From Caldilineaceae bacterium (lineage in GTDB: Bacteria > Chloroflexota > Anaerolineae > Caldilineales > Caldilineaceae): 64,000 nt of DNA. The stretch is from the NCBI GenBank assembly GCA_026989655.1, contig JALSIX010000050.1, positions 1 through 64,000 on the forward strand, written 5' to 3'. Position 1 is the first letter of the stretch; every line of letters begins with the position of its first letter. Below, piece by piece: positions 1 through 57,145 of the stretch. The notes under the pieces are model-generated. The model made no database searches. It was not told where the DNA came from and saw only the letters and a list, made by a program, of their open reading frames with translations. Both the position numbers and the translations under genes were made by a program.

Positions 1-574
1 GTGGTGGTGTTGGCCAGGGTGGTGTCGTCGGCGGAGCCGCAGATGTTGTCGGCTCCTGGGTCGATGAGGGAGACGGTGAGACCTGAGATGCCGTTTTCAC
101 CGGGGTCCTGGATGCCGTTGGCGTTGGTGTCGAGCCAGACGAAGTCTCCCAGGGATGCGGGCTGGAAGAGGCCGGCATCGATGGAGGGGTCATGCTGTCC
201 GGAGGAGAGGGAGACGAGGTGGCTGAGGCCTGTGGAGGGGTTGGCGTCGCTGTCCTTGGCGTCGTCGGTGCCCTGGTTGGGCGGGCTGAAGAGGTAGCCT
301 GTGGGTGCGGAGAACTGGACGCAGTAGTTGCCGGGTTCGAGGTCGCCGAAGATGTAGGTGCCTGCTGGGTCGACGTTGCCATCGTCGTCCACGTCGGTGG
401 AGCCGTCGGAGGTGGTGGTGTTGGCCAGGGTGGTGTCGTCGGCGGAGCCGCAGATGTTGTCGGCTCCTGGGTCGATGAGGGAGACGGTGAGACCTGAGAT
501 GCCGTTTTCACCGGGGTCCTGGATGCCGTTGGCGTTGGCGTCGAGCCAGACGAAGTCTCCCAGGGATGCGGGCT
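1..574. repeat. Direct repeat coding two SdrD-type modules (411-bp period)
   Basis: Bases 1-163 match 412-574 with a single visible difference (T at 129, C at 540). The copies encode the start of consecutive SdrD-B modules, 137 codons apart. Near identity at the DNA level suggests a recent duplication or ongoing gene conversion. More copies may lie beyond the window edge. Confidence 0.9.
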
Positions 575-27992: not shown

Positions 27993-30320
27993 TCAGCGGG
28001 TCACCAGCGGGAGGTACAGCCAGGACGTGTCGTTGTCCTGGATGGTGAGGATGGCCTCTGCAGGATCCCCCAACTCCGCGCCGCCGGAGGGGCCGAAGAG
28101 GAGCAGGCGGACCGTCTCATCGGGCTCCACGTTCTTGTCGTCCAGGATGGGCACGGTGAAACTCTTCAGGGTCTCGCCATCCTGGAAGGTCAGGGTGCCC
28201 TGGGTCTCCTGGTAGTCCTTGCCCGCCTCCGCGGTGCTGCCCAGGGAGAGGGTCTTGTACTGGACGCCGACTTGGCCGCTGCTGCCGTTCACCCGTTCCA
28301 CGGTGATGGTGGCCACACCCACGTCCTCGGTCACGGTGTAGGTGTTGCTGCGGAAACGCAGGGTGCCGGCCGGTGCCACATCGTCGTCCCGGATGGTGAC
28401 CGTGGCCTGAGCCGGGTCGTCCAGGGCGGCCCCGCCGGTGGGGTTGGAGAGCTCCAGGACGAAGGTCTCGTCCGGCTCGTCCACGGTGTCCTGGAGGACG
28501 GTCACGGTGAAGGTCTTGCGGACCTCACCGGGGCCAAAGCTGAGGGTGCCCGAGATGCTTTGGTAGTCCTGTCCGGCCACGGCTGTGCCGTCTCGGGTCC
28601 CGTAGCGGACCGTCACGGCGCCGCCGGTGCCTCCCACCCGTTCCACGGTGACCGTGAGCACCTGCCCCTCGTCCACCCCGTAGGTCCCCTGGCTGAAGCG
28701 CAGGGCGCCCGGGGCTGCGGCCGCGTACTCGTCCGCGCCGATGTCGTAGCCCTGGCCGGCCGGTCGGGCGTCCCCGTCGATGTCCAGGGAGACGCCGGTG
28801 TCCACCCCCGCGTCGATGGCCGCGGAGCCGTCCTGGAGACGCTGGTTCGCGTCCAGTTTGGGATCGCCGGTGACCCGGCCGGCGTTGGTAAAGATGGGGG
28901 TGCCTGCAGCGGCCAGGGTGGGGTTCTGCACGTTGTACAGCAGGCTGTTCACGTCGTGGATGGCCAGGGTCTTTGTGTAGTGGCTGCCCACAAAGGCCGC
29001 GGTGGCGCTGGTCACCAGGGTGTTGGTCAGGGTGGCCCGGAAGGAGATGCCCTGCCAGGACTGGGCCAGGTGGATGGCTCCCGGCGTCTGGTTCTCGGCC
29101 AGGGTGGCATGGCGCACCCGGACGTCCAGCTCACCCAGGGTGCCGCCTCGAACCAGGACGGTGGAGCCCCCGGTGCCGGGCTGCTCCAGGCGGTTTCCGG
29201 CGGCCAGCACGTTCACCATGTCCACCTCCGCCCGGCCGCTCCCCACCTTCCGGATGGACAGGGCGGCCCCGTCCTCGCTGGCTCGGTTGTCCCGGAACTC
29301 CACCCGGTCCAGGAAGAGCTGGTCGGAGAGGTTGGCATGGATGGCGCCCCCGATGGCGTCGTCTCGACCCACCGCGCTGTTGCCCACGAAGCGGCTGTCG
29401 GTGATGGTGATGGGCCCGGATACGGAGATGAGCCGGAGGCCACCCCCGCTGAAGGTGGCGTGGTTGTTGTCGAACTGGCTGTTCCGGATGCTCAGGCTCC
29501 CGGCATAGTGGACCACGATGCCGCCGCCATAGCCTTCCTGGGTGTTGGTGTTGCTGAAGACCTGGACGTTCTCCAGCACCGTCCCCGGTAGGGTCCCCCA
29601 CAGCAGGGCCCCGCCCCCCTGGCTATACAGCCGGGTGCGGCTGGCGGTGTTGTCCCGGATCAGGGTGTTGCGCAGGAAGAGGCGCACCTGATAGGCCAAC
29701 AGCCCGCCGGCACAGTCGCCCCCGGTGGAGGGACAGGCTGCGTTGGCCACCCCGGGAGGATTGCCCAGCTCGGTGTAGTCCCCGTTCACGATCTGGAAGC
29801 CGTCCACGGTGACGGTGACGGGGCGGCTGTCGCTCCCCAACAGGGTGACGCCTCTTCCACCGCCCTGGGCATCGATGACCGAGGGATGCCCCTGGGGATC
29901 TGGCTGGTCCCAGTTCCCTGGCGGGAAGCCTCCGCGCAGGGTCAGGTTCTTGCCGTCCACCAACACCACCTGGGTGTAGGTGTAGCCGGTAGCCGTGGAG
30001 ACCCGGGACTGGACGCCGGTGTAGGTGCCCCCGGCCACCCGGATCTCGTCGCCGTCCCCGGCCTGATCCACCGCGTACTGGATGGTCTGGCAGGGCTGGG
30101 CCGGGTTCGTGCAGTCTCCGGCGTCGGTTCCTGTGGGCGCTACGTAGCGCACGGTTCCACCGGCCTGTCCCACCTGGACGCTTCCCAGGAGAAGGGCCAC
30201 CAACAGGAGAGCCCCGACCCCCATGAGTGGAAGCGACCACAGCCTGGGGAGGGCCCGGACCCTGGACACCGGGGTGGGGGCTGTCGTGGTGTGGGAGAGG
30301 GTGTCGGGGACAGCCATCAT
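27993..30320 (-). CDS. Secreted right-handed beta-helix protein with two Calx-beta domains
   Basis: A 775-residue protein with start ATG 30320 behind AAGGAGTGCCC. A hydrophobic segment (about residues 38-62) acts as signal or anchor. From VRYVAPTGTDAGDC a parallel beta-helix (about 70-530) follows, of the choice-of-anchor/pectate-lyase-like type with many asymmetric Asn/Thr/Asp coils (LRDNTASRTR..., IRNSQFDNNHA). Two Calx-beta domains follow (about 555-660 and 670-765: FSQGTYGVDEGQ and FRSNTYTVTEDVG). The last residues are SWLYLPLVTR, a tail shared in kind with the next gene. Likely an extracellular or surface-bound protein that binds polysaccharide; enzymatic activity is not evident. Confidence 0.85.
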   Translation of the reverse strand: MMAVPDTLSHTTTAPTPVSRVRALPRLWSLPLMGVGALLLVALLLGSVQVGQAGGTVRYVAPTGTDAGDCTNPAQPCQTIQYAVDQAGDGDEIRVAGGTYTGVQSRVSTATGYTYTQVVLVDGKNLTLRGGFPPGNWDQPDPQGHPSVIDAQGGGRGVTLLGSDSRPVTVTVDGFQIVNGDYTELGNPPGVANAACPSTGGDCAGGLLAYQVRLFLRNTLIRDNTASRTRLYSQGGGALLWGTLPGTVLENVQVFSNTNTQEGYGGGIVVHYAGSLSIRNSQFDNNHATFSGGGLRLISVSGPITITDSRFVGNSAVGRDDAIGGAIHANLSDQLFLDRVEFRDNRASEDGAALSIRKVGSGRAEVDMVNVLAAGNRLEQPGTGGSTVLVRGGTLGELDVRVRHATLAENQTPGAIHLAQSWQGISFRATLTNTLVTSATAAFVGSHYTKTLAIHDVNSLLYNVQNPTLAAAGTPIFTNAGRVTGDPKLDANQRLQDGSAAIDAGVDTGVSLDIDGDARPAGQGYDIGADEYAAAAPGALRFSQGTYGVDEGQVLTVTVERVGGTGGAVTVRYGTRDGTAVAGQDYQSISGTLSFGPGEVRKTFTVTVLQDTVDEPDETFVLELSNPTGGAALDDPAQATVTIRDDDVAPAGTLRFRSNTYTVTEDVGVATITVERVNGSSGQVGVQYKTLSLGSTAEAGKDYQETQGTLTFQDGETLKSFTVPILDDKNVEPDETVRLLLFGPSGGAELGDPAEAILTIQDNDTSWLYLPLVTR

Positions 30321-30414
30321 GGGCACTCCTTCGTTGTGTGTTTCGTTGTGTGTTCTCATCGTCAAGGGAACCTCCTCTCTTGCGGATCTGTGGATTCGAT
30401 GCACGGATGGGAGA

Positions 30415-32460
30415 TCACCGCTGGGTGAAGGGCAGGTAGATGCGGGCTCGAGGCGTGGGCGTCGGCGTGCTGCCGGGAGCTGGCGTGGGCGTGGGTGTGG
30501 GCGTCGGGGACGGATCACCCACCTGGGGTGTGCCCAGGAGCCAGTCCGGGTACATGGCCTTGCCGTCCTCCGTCAGGGGCCACAGGTCCATGGGGCGGGT
30601 CAGGTCGATGAGCCACAGATCTCGGCCACCGGGGATATCCGGGCTGTTCCGCTCGAAGACCGCGTACCGCCCTCCCGGGGCCACCCGGATGCGCCGCAGG
30701 GGATCGGCCAGCGGCGGCGTGGCCGAGTAGAGGTCGAAGTCCGCCACCGTGACGATCTTCTGGTCCGCGAAGGTGTAGCGGTAGATGTCCTTCCCATCGG
30801 TGAAGACGATGCCCGAACCGTCGGGAAGGGGAGCCATGGCCGAGGGATACAGATAGGGGGACTGGGCCCCGCCCACCACCAGGGTGCCTTTGCCGCCGCC
30901 CTCGGTGGTGCAGTAGAGCCCCCCGTTGGTGATGTAGGCCAGCGGGCAGTCGTTGCGGGAGGTCCACGTGAAGTTGTACAGCCCGCCCTCCGGGGAGAAG
31001 AGGCTGGTGTTCAGGTTGCCGGCCATGTCCACGGCCCCGGGCACGCCGTCCACCACGAACCCCACCTGGGAGCCGTCCGGCTTCCAGGTGGGCTCTGCCG
31101 CCTCCCAGGCCGGGCAACTGTTGTCGCCGTTGAAGTTCACCGTGCCGATGTCCACGGTGCCCCCGGCCTGCACATCGATCAGGGTGCCCAGGGCCGGAGT
31201 GATGGACGTGGCGCAGTTTCTGTCGGGGATGCCGTCGCCGTTGCTGTCCACCTGGCCGCTCCAGAGGAAGGCCATGTATTGGCCCTTTCCCGGTCCTAGG
31301 TCGGCCACGTTGGGAACGGTGAAGGAGGTGACGTCTCCGTTCCCACCTGGGGAGAGAACCAAGGGCGCGTCGGCCCCCTGGATGTAGACGCTGAAGGTGG
31401 CCACCGGTCCGAAGTTGTTCCGGATCTTCCCGGTGACCGTGCCCTTGCCGTAGCCACCGGCCTGGATCTCGCTGTGGGCCGGGGGATTGGTCAGCCGACG
31501 CAGGCGACCATCCGCCAGGCGGACGCTGTAGATGTCGGTCTGGAAGTTGGAGTAGCCGAACTCGTGGGCACTGGCAAACGCGATCTCCGAGCCGTCGGGC
31601 TTCCAGGCCAGGCCGAAGAACTTCTTGATCGGGGCCGAGGCCGGATAGGTCCACAGGGTTCGGCGCTGGCTGCCATCTGGACGCATCCAGTTGACGGTGA
31701 TGTTGCCCTGGGTGTCCACGCTGGCGAACGCGATGGCACCTCCGGGATCCGGATAGCTCCACTGGCCGTCCAGCTTCAGGGAGACGTTGTCCAGGTAGAG
31801 GTCGAAGGCGGTGGGATCGCCCAGGCCCAGGAGGAAGATCAGGTAGACATGTTGGCCCTGCTGGTGGGCACGTTGCAGCTTCTGGACCTGTTCCTGGGTG
31901 AGCGGCTGTTGGAACCGCTGCCAACCCGTGTCCTGGGTGATCCAGTTGGGGCCGGTGACCTGCCACTGGCCGATGAGCTCGAGCTGGTTGGTCGCGGGAT
32001 CGAACCCCACCAGGCGTGCGAGCAACTGCCCCCCGGCCCCGGGGTTGGTGTCCACGGCCAGGCGGTAGTCCACCCCCAGGGTGCCTGCCGTGACGGTGTT
32101 GGGCAGGAAGATCTCCTGGCGGACCCAGTTCCAGTAGACGTTGGTCCCGGGATCGTAGCCCTCGCTGGTGCCCTGCAGGGAGAGGACGGGGTTCGCGTCG
32201 TACCCTTCCAGGCTACCGAAATTGACGGTGAGGATGTTCATCCACGCCCAATCGTTCCACTGGATGTTGAACCGGCCGTTGCGCACGAACTCCTTGCCGG
32301 TGAAGGCAACGGTGCGTCCGGGGGCCTGGGACCGGGCCGTCCGGGCTCGGCGCAGAGCGCCCTGGACGTCCCCCGATCCGGCAAGCAAGGAGAGGAGAAG
32401 GGCCAGGACGCTGCCCAGGAGTGTGGCCCGGTTCGTTGCCCATCGATGAGAGCGCGCCAT
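30415..32460 (-). CDS. Secreted beta-propeller protein with jelly-roll N-domain and YLPF tail
   Basis: A 681-residue protein with start ATG 32460 behind GGAGGTGTCTCC. Residues 10-35 form a signal peptide. Residues about 55-240 look like a carbohydrate-binding jelly-roll (NGRFNIQWNDW... and FDLYLDNVSLK). From about 245 a TolB-like propeller follows with blades containing WKPDGSEIAF, WKPDGSQVGF and LPDGSGIVF. A Thr/Pro repeat stalk leads to the C-terminal RARIYLPFTQR. The gene precedes the beta-helix gene on the same strand with 94 bp between, so they are probably transcribed together and their products may work together at the cell surface. Confidence 0.82.
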   Translation of the reverse strand: MARSHRWATNRATLLGSVLALLLSLLAGSGDVQGALRRARTARSQAPGRTVAFTGKEFVRNGRFNIQWNDWAWMNILTVNFGSLEGYDANPVLSLQGTSEGYDPGTNVYWNWVRQEIFLPNTVTAGTLGVDYRLAVDTNPGAGGQLLARLVGFDPATNQLELIGQWQVTGPNWITQDTGWQRFQQPLTQEQVQKLQRAHQQGQHVYLIFLLGLGDPTAFDLYLDNVSLKLDGQWSYPDPGGAIAFASVDTQGNITVNWMRPDGSQRRTLWTYPASAPIKKFFGLAWKPDGSEIAFASAHEFGYSNFQTDIYSVRLADGRLRRLTNPPAHSEIQAGGYGKGTVTGKIRNNFGPVATFSVYIQGADAPLVLSPGGNGDVTSFTVPNVADLGPGKGQYMAFLWSGQVDSNGDGIPDRNCATSITPALGTLIDVQAGGTVDIGTVNFNGDNSCPAWEAAEPTWKPDGSQVGFVVDGVPGAVDMAGNLNTSLFSPEGGLYNFTWTSRNDCPLAYITNGGLYCTTEGGGKGTLVVGGAQSPYLYPSAMAPLPDGSGIVFTDGKDIYRYTFADQKIVTVADFDLYSATPPLADPLRRIRVAPGGRYAVFERNSPDIPGGRDLWLIDLTRPMDLWPLTEDGKAMYPDWLLGTPQVGDPSPTPTPTPTPAPGSTPTPTPRARIYLPFTQR

Positions 32461-50018: not shown

Positions 50019-50825
50019 ATGGCCATCCGACACCTACCTGGAGATCCGGCCCAGCACCCAGCCAACGCTTCGCCCTCCGGGCACCCTTCGCCCTGGGCTC
50101 TCCGTCGCCGTGCCCTGAAGGGTCCTCTCCTGGCCTTCGGGCTCGTCCTCCTGCTGGGGGGGCTGCTGGTGGGTTGTCGCGGCGACGTCGGTGACAGGGG
50201 ACCGGTGGCCGGGCCATCCCTGTCGACCCCTTCCCTCCCCTCCCCGACTCCAGAAGGCCCTGGGGAGGCTCTCGGCAAGGAGGCCGGCGGGGAACCGGAC
50301 AGGAGGCCGCTGGGATGGATCGAGGCCCAGCCCCTTTCCCCCGCGGAGGCCTTGCCGCCGGCCCGGCTCCAGATCCCGGACATCGGCCTGGACGTTCCGG
50401 TGGTTCCCATGGGCTGGCGCATCGCCGTGATCGGGGGTGTGCGCACCACGGAGTGGATCGTGCCCGAGGACGCGGCCGGCTGGCATGTGAACAGCGCGAA
50501 GGCCGGCGCCCGGGGCAATGTGGTCATCTCCGGCCATCAGCTTCTGGGCACCGCGGTCTTCCAGCCCATCGCCCTGGGCGATGTCCAGGAGGGCCAGGAG
50601 ATCCGCCTGACCGATGCCTCCGGTCGGACCTTCATCTACCAGGTCCAACAGGTGAGCGAGCCGATCCCCATCGGGGTGGATCTGGTCCAGGAACGGACCA
50701 TCGCGGCCCAGTACACCGGCCCGACCGCGGAGGCCCGTTTGACCCTGGTCACCGGCTGGCCGGACTACGCGTCCACCCACCGGGTGTTCGTGGTGGCCAC
50801 ATGGAGGGGCCGAGCCGGCCCCTGA
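50019..50825 (+). CDS. Sortase-like lipoprotein lacking the catalytic cysteine
   Basis: A 268-residue protein. The hydrophobic helix 36-52 ends in lipobox LLVGC (Cys53). A Pro/Glu linker (60-110) leads to a sortase beta-barrel (115-262) with LQIPDIGLDVPV, the catalytic His173 in VVISGHQ and Arg255 in STHRVFVVA. The strand that should read TLVTC reads TLVTG: Gly246 (codon GGC at 50754-50756) stands where the nucleophilic Cys belongs. Active transpeptidases need that Cys, so this is either a pseudo-enzyme (binding or scaffold) or a different chemistry. The spacing to the Arg (9 residues) is otherwise normal. First gene of a plus-strand run of envelope genes. Confidence 0.85.
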   Translation: MAIRHLPGDPAQHPANASPSGHPSPWALRRRALKGPLLAFGLVLLLGGLLVGCRGDVGDRGPVAGPSLSTPSLPSPTPEGPGEALGKEAGGEPDRRPLGWIEAQPLSPAEALPPARLQIPDIGLDVPVVPMGWRIAVIGGVRTTEWIVPEDAAGWHVNSAKAGARGNVVISGHQLLGTAVFQPIALGDVQEGQEIRLTDASGRTFIYQVQQVSEPIPIGVDLVQERTIAAQYTGPTAEARLTLVTGWPDYASTHRVFVVATWRGRAGP

Positions 50826-50936: not shown

Positions 50937-52673
50937 ATGCACACCCAATCCCGAACATCGGACATGGCCCCTCAAGAGCGCTCCCCATCCCAGGGGCTGG
51001 ACGCCACGCCGGTCGCCCAGCTCCAGGGCGCCCAGCCCCTGCGCTGTTCCATCGTGGTGCCTGTCTACAACGGCGGGCACACCATCCAGGCCTGCCTGGA
51101 TGCCCTGGCTCGACAGACTCTGGACGCGGGCACGTATGAGATCCTGGTGGTGGACGACGGCTCCACCGACGATACAGGGACCCGGGTACGGGCCTGGATG
51201 GAGCGCCACCCCCAGGTGGCGGCCCGTCTGATCCAGCAGGCGAACGCCGGCCCTGCCGCGGCCCGCAATCGGGGGGTGGAAGCCGCCCGGGCCCCTGTGG
51301 TGCTCTTCACCGACGCGGACTGCGCGCCCATGCCCCACTGGGCCGAGGCCATGCTGGCCGCGTTCGAGTCGCCCGACGTGGCCGGGGCCAAGGGCACGTA
51401 CCTGACGGACCAGACAGGTCTGGTGCCCCGGTTCGTGCAGGCGGAGTACGAGGACCGATACGACCGGATGCGGCACCTGGACCGGATCGACTTCGTGGAC
51501 ACCTATTCCGCGGCCTATCGCCGGGATGTCTTCCTGGAGAACGGCGGCTTCGATCCCACCTTCACCACGGCCAGCGTGGAGGACCAGGAGTTCAGCTTCC
51601 GTCTGGCCGCGAAGGGGTATCGGCTGGTCTTCGTGCCCCGGGCCCAGGTCAAGCACCTGCACGACAGGAACGTCTGGGAGTATGCCCGGCGCAAGTATGC
51701 CATCGGCTTCTGGAAGGCCCTGCTCATCGCCTGGCACCCCGAACGGGCCATCCAGGACAGCCACACCCCCCAGGTGCTCAAGCTCCAGATGGCCCTCTGG
51801 GCCGGAATTCTGGGCGCGCTGCCCCTGGCCCTCCTGGGGGCCTTTTGGCCGGGGCTGCGTTGGCTCTGGGCCCTGATCGGCGGGCTGGGGATCGTCTTCC
51901 TGGCCACCGCCGTGCCCTTCCAGCGGAAGGTGGCCAGACGTTCCCTGGGGTTGGCCCTGGTGAGCCCCGGTCTGTTGGCCGTTCGGGCCGTGGCCCTGGG
52001 ACTGGGCTACGTGGTGGGCACCATCCACTTCACGGGCACGCCACCGGGGACCGATCACCCGGTGATCCCGGGCTGGAAACGGCTGGTGAAGCGGGCCATG
52101 GACATCGTCGGCGCGTTGCTGGGCCTGGCCGCTTCGGCCCCCCTGATCCTGGTGGCCGGGCTGGCCATCAAGCTGGACTCGCCCGGCCCTATCTTCTTCG
52201 TCCAGACCCGCATCGGCGAACACGGCCGCCCCTTCCGGATGGTGAAGCTCCGTACCATGACCCCCCAGGCCGAGGAACGCCTCGCGGAGCTCCTGGACCT
52301 CACCCAGCTCCAGGAGCCTGCCTACAAGCTGCGCCGGGATCCCCGGGTCACTCGGGTGGGGCGATGGCTCCGCCGCTTCAGCCTGGACGAGCTCCCCCAG
52401 TTCTGGAACGTGCTCCGGGGGGAGATGAGCCTGGTGGGGCCCCGCCCCGAGGAGGCCCGGATCGTGGCCCTGTACACCGACCACCAGCGTCGCCGTCTGA
52501 CCGTGAAGCCCGGCATGACCGGCCCCATGCAGGTGAACGGCCGCGGCGATCTCTCCTTCGAGGAGCGGTTGCGTCTGGAGATCGACTACATCGAGCACTA
52601 CAGCCTCCTGCGCGACGTCCAGATCCTGTTGCAGACCGTGCCCGCCGTGCTGCGAGGCCGCGGCGCGTACTGA
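50937..52673 (+). CDS. Fusion of GT2 glycosyltransferase and phosphoglycosyl transferase
   Basis: A 578-residue protein. Residues about 37-260 are a GT2 glycosyltransferase with [20 protein letters not shown] and FTDADCAP (DxD), and an acceptor-side [11 protein letters not shown] (ED). Two or three hydrophobic helices follow (about 280-355). Residues about 360-577 are a bacterial sugar transferase (WbaP/PglC type) with [30 protein letters not shown] (catalytic Asp-Glu) and VGPRP. The second half places a sugar phosphate on a lipid carrier; the first may add the next sugar. Joining both steps in one chain is unusual. ATG 50937 lies 111 bp after the sortase-like gene. Confidence 0.88.
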
Positions 52674-52726: not shown

Positions 52727-53521
52727 ATGCGCCAGCCCACCTCCGCTGTCGACCATGCTCCGCCGGAAGCGAGACGCCTTTGGCGCCCCTCTCGTCTGTG
52801 GCGCTGGTGGGTGGTCGGAGTGGTCCTGCTGCTGCTGAGCGCGCCGACCGCGGGGGCCCGTCCCTTGTCCTCCCGGCCGGGCCAGACCCTGCCGCCCTTC
52901 ACGCCCACCTTCACGCCCACACCTCTGCCCACCGCGACCCCCACCTTCACGCCCCGGCCCACGGACACCCCCCCACCGCCCACCCCCACGAACACCCCGA
53001 CCCTTCCACCTCCTCGGCCCACCCCGACACGGCCTCCTCTCCGGCCTACTCCCACGTCCACCCCCACCCCGACATCCACCCCGACGGCCACACCGGAGCC
53101 CTCTCCGACCCCGACGCCGGCCGCGAGCCTGGAGCTCCGCCTGAGCGTTCGGCCGGACCCGGTGCGCCAGGGGGAACGCTTCCAGATCACCTTCTACCTG
53201 CTCAACCGGGGACCCGAGGACGCGGTGGATGTGGCCCTGCGGGATCGCTTTCCACCGGACCTGGTTCCGGGCGCCGTGGAGTCCGGTGGAGGTGCGGTCA
53301 CCTGGACGGCCGAGGACGGCACCGCGGTGCTCCAGGTGACCTGGCCCATGCTTCCCGCCAACAGCTCCACCCAGGTCACCGTGGAGGCCACCGTGGCGAC
53401 GGACGTTCCGGACGGCGCGGTGATCGACAACCTGGCTGTGGTCCAGGCCGGGAACAGCGAGCCGGTGACTGCGGGCATCAGCCTGGGGATGCCGCCGTTC
53501 CTGTTGCCCACGTTCCGCTGA
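52727..53521 (+). CDS. Secreted DUF11-type protein with long Pro/Thr stalk
   Basis: A 264-residue protein. A hydrophobic helix at about 24-43 is the signal or anchor. Residues 55-135 are a Pro/Thr/Ser stalk of TPTPTFTP-type units. Residues 140-255 form one DUF11/CARDB-like Ig fold (LELRLSVRPDPVRQGERFQITFYL split by NRGPEDAVDV, a typical paired-glycine start). The end is GMPPFLLPTFR, without an LPxTG-like sorting signal. It could be a glycosylated surface protein for the neighbouring transferases (inference). Ribosome site GGTGAGATCCG; 53 bp after the fusion gene. Confidence 0.75.
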   Translation: MRQPTSAVDHAPPEARRLWRPSRLWRWWVVGVVLLLLSAPTAGARPLSSRPGQTLPPFTPTFTPTPLPTATPTFTPRPTDTPPPPTPTNTPTLPPPRPTPTRPPLRPTPTSTPTPTSTPTATPEPSPTPTPAASLELRLSVRPDPVRQGERFQITFYLLNRGPEDAVDVALRDRFPPDLVPGAVESGGGAVTWTAEDGTAVLQVTWPMLPANSSTQVTVEATVATDVPDGAVIDNLAVVQAGNSEPVTAGISLGMPPFLLPTFR

Positions 53522-53530
53522 GCGGAAGCC

Positions 53531-55063
53531 ATGGGCCGTCGCGGGTGGTGGACCTTGGGCTCCGGCCTCCTGGCCGGGCTCCTCTACGGGGTCAGCGGGG
53601 CACCTGGCTACACCTGGGCCCATTTCGGGGCCGACGGCGGGGACTTTCTGGCCGCTGCAGTGACCAACGGGGTGCCCCATCCACCCGGGTATCCCCTCTA
53701 CACCCTGCTCCTGCAGGGCTGGCTGGCCCTGTCCGGCTGGGTGAGCCCGGACAGCTCCCCGGCCTGGCGGGGCAACCTCTTCAGTGGGCTCTGCGCGGCC
53801 CTGTCCGTCTCCCTCACCGGGTGGCTGCTCCCTCGCCTGCGCCTTCCTCTCCGGGCGGTCCGCTCCTCGAGCATGGTGGCCCTGGTGGCGGTGGCCTGGG
53901 CGGTGGCGCCGCTCCTCTGGGACCAGGCCACCATCACCGAGGTGTACGCGCTCCACAGCCTGTTGGTGGTGGGCCTGGTGGGGCTGGCCCTGGGCCATCG
54001 TCCCGCGGATCCTCGGCGGCGGGCCCAGCTCTTCGGCCTGGTGCTTGGGCTGGGCCTCGCCCATCACATGACGGTGGTGTTGGTGTTGCCGGCCCTGGCC
54101 TATGGGCTCTGGCACGTGGAGCCGGGGGCTCGACGGCTCTCCTTCTGGGGGTGGGTTGCGGCGGGCACCCTCCCGGGCCTGGCCCTCTACCTGCGTATCC
54201 CCTGGGCTGCCCAGCTCCAGCCCCCCTCGCCGGTCAACTGGGGGTGGCCCACCACCTGGGAGGGGTTCTGGTGGTTGGTCAGCGGCGCGGCCTATCGGGA
54301 CTACCTGTTCGCCTTCACGTCGCCCTGGAGCCTGGTCCGCCTCAGCCGTTGGGCCCAGATCTTGGCCGACCAGTACACGCCGGTGGGGCTGGCCTTGGTC
54401 CTGGCCGGCCTCTACCGCTGGGACCGGGACATGCCCTGGCTGCGGAACCTGGTTCTGCTCTGGACGTTGCCCATCACCGCCTACATGGTGAGCTACAACA
54501 CCGTGGACAGCGAGGTCTACCTGTTGCCCGTGGTCTGGTGGATGGCTCTCCTTCTGGCCGAGGGGCTGGTCGAGGTGCGGGCCTGGCTGGTGGCCCGTTT
54601 CCCCCGCGGCACGGGCTCCTGGTCGGTCTGGGCGGGAGCGGGCCTGGCCGCGCTGCTCCTGCTCACGGCTCTGCGCTGGCCCCAGCACAGTCTCCGAGGA
54701 GACCGGGAGGCCGAGGACTTCATCGCCCAGGTCGCGGCGGTGTTGGAGCCCAACAGCATCCTCTTCAGCCAGTCGGACCAGGAGACCTTCGCGCTCTGGT
54801 ATGGGGCCTGGGCCCGGGGCGACCTGCTGGACACGGCCCCGGGGACCGTGCTCCTGAACGTCTCCCTGTTCCAGTTCTCCTGGTATCCGGAGCTGATGGC
54901 CGCCCTCTATCCCCAGGTGCCGGGGATTCGCTCGGGATCGGCCGGAGCCGTGTTGTCGGCCAACGCGGGGGTGCGGCCCATCTACTTCGCGGAGCCTCTG
55001 GACCTGGTTCCCGGGGATCGGCTGGAGCCCGTGGGGCCCATCTGGCGGTATCGCCCCCCTTGA
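53531..55063 (+). CDS. DUF2723 protein O-mannosyltransferase-like membrane protein
   Basis: A 510-residue protein with about 10 membrane helices. The N-terminal GADGGDFLAAAVTNGVPHPPGYPLYTLLLQ segment is the DUF2723 signature (ASD-E-like acidic loop then HPPGYP), the place of the catalytic Asp in GT-C enzymes. A soluble C-terminal stretch (about 400-500) follows. DUF2723 proteins are related to protein O-mannosyltransferases that move a sugar from a lipid donor to a secreted protein, for which the Thr/Pro-rich protein just upstream would be a natural acceptor (inference). ATG 53531 is 9 bp after the DUF11 gene. Confidence 0.85.
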   Translation: MGRRGWWTLGSGLLAGLLYGVSGAPGYTWAHFGADGGDFLAAAVTNGVPHPPGYPLYTLLLQGWLALSGWVSPDSSPAWRGNLFSGLCAALSVSLTGWLLPRLRLPLRAVRSSSMVALVAVAWAVAPLLWDQATITEVYALHSLLVVGLVGLALGHRPADPRRRAQLFGLVLGLGLAHHMTVVLVLPALAYGLWHVEPGARRLSFWGWVAAGTLPGLALYLRIPWAAQLQPPSPVNWGWPTTWEGFWWLVSGAAYRDYLFAFTSPWSLVRLSRWAQILADQYTPVGLALVLAGLYRWDRDMPWLRNLVLLWTLPITAYMVSYNTVDSEVYLLPVVWWMALLLAEGLVEVRAWLVARFPRGTGSWSVWAGAGLAALLLLTALRWPQHSLRGDREAEDFIAQVAAVLEPNSILFSQSDQETFALWYGAWARGDLLDTAPGTVLLNVSLFQFSWYPELMAALYPQVPGIRSGSAGAVLSANAGVRPIYFAEPLDLVPGDRLEPVGPIWRYRPP

Positions 55064-55177
55064 GCGGTGCTCGGGGCCTGGTGCTCCGAGCGATCTCCCG
55101 GGCATCGCCTGGGGGAGGTTCGGGCCCTCTCCGGGCCTGGCCCGGGAGAATCCTGGATCCGGGAGAGGCCTGCCCCG

Positions 55178-55186
55178 TGGTACAAT
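55178..55186 (+). promoter_or_regulatory. Extended -10 of the DUF4012 gene
   Basis: TGGTACAAT (TGN plus TACAAT at 55181-55186), 46 bp before ATG 55232. No good -35. Confidence 0.6.
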
Positions 55187-55231
55187 GCACGAGCGGAGCC
55201 ATCGGACCATCGAAGCGTCTGCCTGCGAACC

Positions 55232-57145
55232 ATGGATGACTTCCCCCGGACCGCCCAGCCATCCGACGTCCAGCCCTCCAGAGCTGCTCGCGCCCGCCGG
55301 CGCCCGATCCGGCTGGGGCTCCTGCTGCTGGCGTTCCTGCTCGGTGCCCTCATCCTCTACAAGGCGGGCCGCGTCGGCTACTACGCCTGGCAGCTCTATC
55401 GCCAGGTGGATGGGCTGCGGATGTGGGCCCAGGAGCTGCGCGAGGGGTCGGATCCCCTGGACACCCTGGCCGAACAGGAGGAGCGTCTTCGGGACACGGC
55501 CCAGGCCTTGGCCGGGCTGGAGAGAGAGCTCCGTTTTCTGGCCCCTGCCCTGGCTGGGCTGGAGGGCCTGGGCCCCCGGGGCGCGTGGGTGGCCGCGGCT
55601 CCGAAGCTTCTGGTGGTGGCCGCGGAGATGGGCCAGGTGGGCAGCCAGGCCCTGGCCCTGGTGGCACCGGCCCTCCACAGCCCGGACCCCGATGGGTGGG
55701 TGCCTGGGCTCCTGGCCGAGCTGGCCGGCCAGGAGATCGCCTTCCAGGCCATGGCCGCGCGGACAGAACGGGCCGTCCGGGCCCTGGAGACCCTGGAGCC
55801 GGCATCGTTGCCCCCGGCTCTCCAGGAACCGGTGGCCCAGGCCCAGGAGGTGCTCCCCTTGGTCGCCCGGCTCCTTCCCCTGGGCCCTTCCCTGCCCCGG
55901 CTGATGGGCCTGGAGCGTCCTGCCACCTACCTGCTTCTGGTCCAGAACAACCACGAGCTCCGGGGAACCGGCGGGTTCATCAGCGCGGTGGGCCAGGTGG
56001 TGGTGGAACAGGGTCGCCTGGTGGACCTGACCATCGTGGACAGCTACGCGGTGGACAACCTCCAGGTTCCCCATCCCCCCGCGCCGCCCCCTCTCCAACG
56101 CTACATGCAGGCCACCATCCTGGCCCTCCGGGACGCGAACTGGTCGCCAGACCTGCCCACCAGTGCCCGGACGGTACAGGCCCTCTATCGCCAGGACCAG
56201 GGCATCCAGGTGGACGGGGTGATCACCGTGGACCTCCGGGCTGTGGAGCTCCTTCTGGACGGGGTGGGGGGAGTCCAGCTTCCCGGTGTGGAGGGGCCCG
56301 TCACCGGGGAGAACGTGGTGGCGATCCTGACGGAGCTGTGGGGGGACCCTCGCCAGGCCCAGGAACAGGGACAGACATTCCAGGAGTGGTGGCGTCGACG
56401 AAAGGCCTTCATCCCGGCCCTGGCCCAGGCCCTGCTGGCCAAGCTCCGGGGCCGGGAGGTGGATCCCTGGGCCCTCTATCGGGCGGCCCGCCAGGCCCTG
56501 GAGGAGCGGGCCATCCAGATCTGGGTGGAGGAGCCGTCGACCCAGGCCGTGCTCGCGGCCCTGGGGTGGGACGGCGGCCTTCAGCCCCAGGCGGGCGCGG
56601 ACTACCTGGCCCTGGTGGACAGCAATGTGGGCTTCAACAAGGTGGACGGGGTGGTGGAGCGTCGCCTGGCCTATCGGGTGGAATGGCCGGACGACGATCC
56701 CGACGGTCGGGCCCTGGCCAGAGCCACCATCACCTATCGCCACACCTTGCCCGTTCCCGGCCATACCTGTCTCCACACGGCCCGGTACGGTGGCGAATAT
56801 GGGGAGATGATGCGTCGCTGCTATTTCGACTACGTGCGCCTCTACGTGCCCCGGGGGAGCGAGCTCCTCTCCGTCCAGGGGGTGGAGCCCGACTCGGTGG
56901 CCAGCTATCCCGGCGAGAGGCGAACCCAGGTCCTGGCGGGTTTCTTCGTGCTGGAGCCCGGACAGACCCATACGGTGGTCTTCACCTACCGACTGCCGCC
57001 CTCCATCCGTCCCGGCAGCTATCGACTGGTGATCCAGCGCCAGGCCGGCAGCGGCCCCCTGCCGGTGGCCTGGTCCCTGGAGGAGGATCTTCGAGGCCAG
57101 ACCGTCCTCTCGGGCAACCTCCTGGTCTGGTCGCCCCCGCCCTGA
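55232..57145 (+). CDS. DUF4012 membrane-anchored surface protein
   Basis: A 637-residue protein. An Arg-rich N-terminus and one membrane helix (about 27-47) are followed by a helical region (60-225) and the DUF4012 domain, whose hallmark is the NNHELRGTGGFISAVG segment at about 243-258. A further outer domain (about 445-635) has the conserved TYRHTLPVPGH and FVLEPGQTHTVVFTYRLP. The family occurs in envelopes of Chloroflexota and Actinomycetota and resembles LytR-CpsA-Psr associated polymer-attachment proteins in setting, but its biochemistry is unknown. It continues the plus-strand surface locus, and the MFS gene is 15 bp downstream. Confidence 0.88.
   Translation: MDDFPRTAQPSDVQPSRAARARRRPIRLGLLLLAFLLGALILYKAGRVGYYAWQLYRQVDGLRMWAQELREGSDPLDTLAEQEERLRDTAQALAGLERELRFLAPALAGLEGLGPRGAWVAAAPKLLVVAAEMGQVGSQALALVAPALHSPDPDGWVPGLLAELAGQEIAFQAMAARTERAVRALETLEPASLPPALQEPVAQAQEVLPLVARLLPLGPSLPRLMGLERPATYLLLVQNNHELRGTGGFISAVGQVVVEQGRLVDLTIVDSYAVDNLQVPHPPAPPPLQRYMQATILALRDANWSPDLPTSARTVQALYRQDQGIQVDGVITVDLRAVELLLDGVGGVQLPGVEGPVTGENVVAILTELWGDPRQAQEQGQTFQEWWRRRKAFIPALAQALLAKLRGREVDPWALYRAARQALEERAIQIWVEEPSTQAVLAALGWDGGLQPQAGADYLALVDSNVGFNKVDGVVERRLAYRVEWPDDDPDGRALARATITYRHTLPVPGHTCLHTARYGGEYGEMMRRCYFDYVRLYVPRGSELLSVQGVEPDSVASYPGERRTQVLAGFFVLEPGQTHTVVFTYRLPPSIRPGSYRLVIQRQAGSGPLPVAWSLEEDLRGQTVLSGNLLVWSPPP

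Follow-up and report, generated by a model that had tools for sequence, protein, structure and literature searches.

A lipid-anchored protein with a sortase fold, found in the Caldilineaceae, has glycine in place of the catalytic cysteine, and the DUF11 protein encoded in the same operon ends in LPxFx-stop instead of LPxTG. This change of the partner's tail, matching the Cys to Gly change of the sortase, is what is new here. In our reading, which we give a probability of roughly 55%, a dead sortase, whose ancestor was an active Cys sortase in this operon, docks the DUF11 protein by its LPxFx-COOH end. If true, this would be a route from a covalent sorting enzyme to a non-covalent receptor, and possibly a small natural pair of C-terminal tag and binder. 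A literature search of partial coverage on pseudo-sortases and naturally inactive sortases returned nothing on point.

Table 1. Features of the pseudo-sortase operon in the window, the 64,000-nucleotide stretch of DNA that was analysed.
Feature	Position	Strand	Basis or remark
Pseudo-sortase lipoprotein	50019..50825	+	Translation, Pfam Sortase, AlphaFold2 model and fold match, 23 orthologues
Lipobox Cys53 of pseudo-sortase, after signal	50175-50177	+	Translation
Sortase domain of pseudo-sortase, residues ~114-261			
His173 of pseudo-sortase	50535-50537	+	Translation
Gly246 of pseudo-sortase	50754-50756	+	Translation
Arg255 of pseudo-sortase	50781-50783	+	Translation
Glycosyltransferase family 2 fused to bacterial sugar transferase (initiating phosphoglycosyl transferase type)	50937..52673	+	PF00535 1.1e-29, PF02397 1.4e-64; syntenic in relatives
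Exported DUF11 protein, Thr/Pro-rich linker	52727..53521	+	Pfam DUF11 6.1e-8; tail comparison
DUF11 tail MPPFLLPTFR-COOH; LPTFR	53504-53518	+	Proposed client signal of pseudo-sortase
TMEM260-like protein O-mannosyltransferase, membrane GT-C	53531..55063	+	PF11028 3.8e-22
DUF4012 protein, start probably internal (Met56)	55067..57145	+	PF13196 1e-31

The translation of the gene, 268 residues long, agreed with the original prediction in every residue named. A GGC codon gives Gly246 within TLVTGWP, at the end of strand beta-7 where sortases have their catalytic Cys; His173 (within SGH) and Arg255 (within THR) are both retained; and the lipobox LLVGC ends at Cys53. No Cys other than that of the lipobox occurs in the whole protein, hence none in the sortase domain, which rules out a nearby Cys as a substitute nucleophile. 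The sortase fold was likewise borne out. The Pfam profile PF04203 (Sortase) matched with E = 1.6e-17 and 63.9 bits (cut-off 26.6), and the AlphaFold2 model of residues 97-268 reached a mean pLDDT of 92.7 and a pTM of 0.89. By VIA-align, the model superimposed on Streptomyces avermitilis sortase E (5go5) with Z 16.2 and an rmsd of 2.0 A over 128 residues, and its top Foldseek matches were chains of Thermobifida fusca SrtE. Profile match and beta-barrel fold thus place the protein in the sortase superfamily; of the marks of an active sortase, it has the active-site Arg and lacks the catalytic Cys. It shares with these class E sortases the fold, the Arg and a TLxTxWP-type strand, but it has Gly for Cys and a lipoprotein anchor, and it scored below the NCBIfam cut-offs for class E (NF033747, 41.9 of 160 bits) and class F (NF033748, 45.1 of 166 bits), as did its Cys relatives from Anaerolineae.

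A search of 100 relatives, mostly metagenome-assembled genomes (MAGs) whose genes were predicted with a simple purpose-written caller, returned 22 further orthologues in 12 further genera, for a total of 23 from 13 Caldilineaceae genera. Those with named records are Caldilineaceae and Litorilinea MAGs (Chloroflexota). A profile search with the alignment gave 19 relatives, on contigs matching family members already found. All orthologues found read [ST]GWP at the Gly site. The occurrence of Gly in homologues, which the original prediction had named as a check, was therefore universal among them (23/23), whereas Cys was present in 34/34 compared Anaerolineae sortases; Arg was found in all 57 aligned rows. 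In 9 of the 23 Gly orthologues the catalytic His, which the window protein retains, has given way to R, S, V or G. When 298 genomes of the class were scanned, six family matches scored 273-312 bits and the remainder at most 180 bits, with Cys in each one read among the latter.

In a maximum-likelihood tree, a single change parts the Gly from the Cys rows (support 86/67; 100% of 200 bootstrap trees), and omega on close pairs of Gly proteins was 0.13-0.28, indicating purifying selection. The Gly substitution is thus real and old, and its fixation in one clade under purifying selection marks the protein as a fixed pseudo-sortase rather than an error. As the original prediction of a pseudo-sortase would have it, catalysis is almost certainly lost in the Gly proteins, judging from the clade-wide loss of Cys and the further losses of His. 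Compared with the Cys sortases, the Gly clade strongly favours new residues at several sites, W155, A162, Q174, A182, A185, P215, F250 and F257, and is without N175, N229 and N252. Q174 adjoins the His, F250 is near the Arg, and W155, Q174, A185 and F250 lie around the groove. The domain is thus under a new kind of constraint.

The original prediction also had the gene opening an envelope locus, and that locus turned out to form an operon that is conserved from genus to genus, in which the pseudo-sortase is followed by the GT2/sugar transferase, the DUF11 protein (which we take to be Ig-like), the TMEM260-like enzyme and the DUF4012 protein. Among 46 genomes of the family, the Gly sortase and DUF4012 were both present in 22 and both absent in 22; the two discordant genomes (G002 and G017) are incomplete assemblies. 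In other Anaerolineae families the same locus holds a Cys sortase (L107, L108, L110, L111, L121, L194, L195, L197). In the Caldilineaceae, the locus thus stayed in place as its sortase gave up the nucleophile. These Cys sortases (e.g., those of L110, L111 and L194) are the top-scoring relatives outside the Gly clade. They share the locus and domain with the pseudo-sortase, and several also a lipobox-type N-terminus, but differ in their intact Cys and His, in a DUF11 neighbour with LPxTG and, at some loci, in two additional genes between the sortase and GT2, one Wzz/kinase-like and one LPG_synthase_TM. At a further locus (L196, in the f32 genome G204), a Cys sortase and the TMEM260-like gene are immediate neighbours, not separated by a DUF11 gene.

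We compared the C-terminal ends of the DUF11 proteins between the two kinds of operon. LPxTG was found near the C-terminus in 14 of 16 Cys-type genomes from other Anaerolineae families (12/14 in a first comparison, plus G106 and G154), the sortase not being seen on the same stretch as the DUF11 gene in five genomes (G129, G152, G172, G073 and G106). It was found in none of the 23 Gly operons. Examples of the LPxTG tails are PPAWLPPTGR, PPAYLPPTGR, PPAELPPTGARFPDSD and PPSELPATGGCAEP; two Cys-type genomes deviate, G076 with LPAVG and G075, which has frame breaks, with LPRGRG. The LPxTG tails have no clear hydrophobic segment and charged end, and in a classical sorting signal LPxTG is followed by a hydrophobic tail, so that we regard these proteins as presumptive sortase substrates.

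In the Gly operons, PPxxLPxF plus one residue and then the stop stands at the place of LPxTG, as in MPPFLLPTFR of the window, TPPVLLPTFD, LPPAILPYFN and LPPASLPDFQ. The DUF11 protein of the window therefore ends in LPTFR-stop instead of a classical LPxTG signal. F occupies position -2 in 22/23 tails and P position -4 in 23/23; the tail of G013 reads LPFAP, and five tails are without the Leu of LP. The tail columns are conserved at 94-100%, whereas the average for the final 130 DUF11 residues is 53%. When the tails were aligned on LP, Phe replaced the P1 Thr and the last residue replaced Gly. Among 539 gene calls, a C-terminal LPx[FYW] occurred in DUF11 proteins only. The other DUF11 proteins of the window's genome have no LPxFx end, the two readable ends being FLPAVSR and FLPSVER.

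Sortase type and tail type were associated with a Fisher p value of 4.9e-8, which is too strong because the change arose once on the tree, so that tip counts overstate what is a single event. The loss of Cys and the change of the tail each occurred once, which is not repeated coevolution. An apparent link between loss of His173 and loss of the tail Leu (Fisher p = 0.0037) was given no weight, as it comes mostly from one subclade. In one Caldilineaceae genome (G002, locus L204), a DUF11-TMEM260 pair was present, the Gly sortase was not found, and the DUF11 protein had a long Pro/Ala-rich end without LPxF. This pattern fits the pairing of sortase and tail, but the genome was left out of the count because its assembly is fragmented.

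Ends of the type [FY]LP[LVA][VIL]xR or similar were seen on several large or exported proteins (window 27993-30518 on the reverse strand, L178, L182, L048 and L111), including YLPLVTR, FLPAVSR, FLPSVER, YLPVLSR and FLPLIIRM. They may represent a wider C-terminal signal of Chloroflexota.

We propose that the ancestor would have been an active Cys sortase in the same glycosylation/envelope operon, presumably reading LPxTG near the C-terminus of the adjacent DUF11 protein. In the Caldilineaceae, the nucleophile would have become Gly and the signal LPxFx-COOH, and cutting would thereby have ended. The sortase groove most likely grips the DUF11 protein through its C-terminal peptide, with Phe at the former place of the P1 Thr, perhaps filling space that the change from Cys to Gly may have freed, and with the conserved Arg255 probably opposite the terminal carboxylate. 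That the tail keeps a fixed distance to the C-terminus and that the Arg never varies suggests recognition of the free carboxylate. Scissile chemistry would have been lost jointly from enzyme and signal, while Arg255, the TLxTxWP frame, LP and the fixed C-terminal distance, by which a peptide would be bound, have been kept or sharpened. A lipid-anchored receptor of this kind would be the simplest mechanism. The pseudo-sortase may then dock the DUF11 protein to the membrane, serving as a lasting tether or presenting it for glycosylation to the operon's O-mannosyltransferase (TMEM260-like) and DUF4012 protein (LCP-like). Thus far we infer peptide binding, the fit of the pocket and the purpose of the protein. 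The original prediction had guessed at a receptor or chaperone for surface proteins; the evidence points more narrowly to one probable client, the tail of the DUF11 protein. We hold somewhat more tentatively, at a little under even odds, that enzyme and signal changed together into a sortase-fold receptor reading a C-terminus, a natural bump-and-hole pair of a surface glycoprotein operon. Laboratory Cys-to-Ala sortases are reported to have been crystallised with LPxT-type peptides bound (7s51, 7s4o, 8t8g), a dead sortase thus retaining its sorting peptide uncut as we propose here. Those losses are man-made, however, whereas the pseudo-sortase lost its Cys naturally and long ago, and a changed tail goes with the loss.

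It is less probable, and on balance unlikely, that the pseudo-sortase serves as a scaffold or chaperone of a glycosylation complex and leaves the tail unread, LPxF being kept for another reader such as the TMEM260-like enzyme. A scaffold role is common to many pseudoenzymes, and the tightly kept operon would agree with it, but the tail is altered precisely where sortases read and cut, and the Arg on the peptide side is invariant. The protein could also bind something else, e.g., a lipid-linked sugar. A role in regulating or assisting some active Cys sortase from another part of the genome seems very improbable. The genome of the window does have two Cys sortases and most Gly genomes at least one further sortase match, but these other sortases lie outside the operon, and in G038, a single contig of 5.06 Mb rated 99% complete, the Gly protein is the only sortase, indicating that an active partner is unnecessary. 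We give slightly less credence still to an enzyme in which a bound metal, or another nucleophile such as Thr245 (in some members Ser), does the work. The fold and Arg are intact and Thr or Ser directly precedes Gly in all members, yet the same Thr/Ser is equally present in Cys sortases, His is lost from more than a third of the orthologues (9/23), and the operon client no longer has the scissile pair of LPxTG. Finally, a sequencing error or decaying pseudogene, suggested by a single missing Cys in one contig, is ruled out by Gly in 23 independent assemblies, which excludes a base error, and by the open frame, the omega values and the conserved operon.

The docking that we favour would bring the DUF11 protein to two further products of the operon. 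LCP (LytR-Cps2A-Psr) enzymes attach glycopolymers to cell walls, and the DUF4012 protein resembles them in its model (pLDDT 85.0, pTM 0.83), while no sequence match to the LCP family was found. In the model, a helical part resembling a coiled coil is combined with an LCP-like domain (protein residues ~283-499) and, at the C-terminus, a beta domain. Many LCP chains matched model residues ~184-400 with Z 7.6-9.1 and 11-15% identity; over the C-terminal domain other folds scored about as high, and this domain looks like beta domains of the kind found in ribophorin I/Ost1. DUF4012 is also listed in a capsule locus of B. longum (PMC5412050). Mammalian TMEM260 O-mannosylates Ig-like IPT domains (PMC11292533), and in the operon a TMEM260-like enzyme is likewise accompanied by an exported DUF11 protein, but this enzyme is bacterial, with putative client and activity. 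An operon in which such an O-mannosyltransferase occurs with a DUF4012 protein that is LCP-like also makes the little-known cell envelope of Chloroflexota more amenable to study. Upstream of the pseudo-sortase in eight Gly loci, L035 among them, a divergently oriented gene beside or near it encodes a caspase-domain protein of ~630-1265 aa (Peptidase_C14, 2.1e-27).
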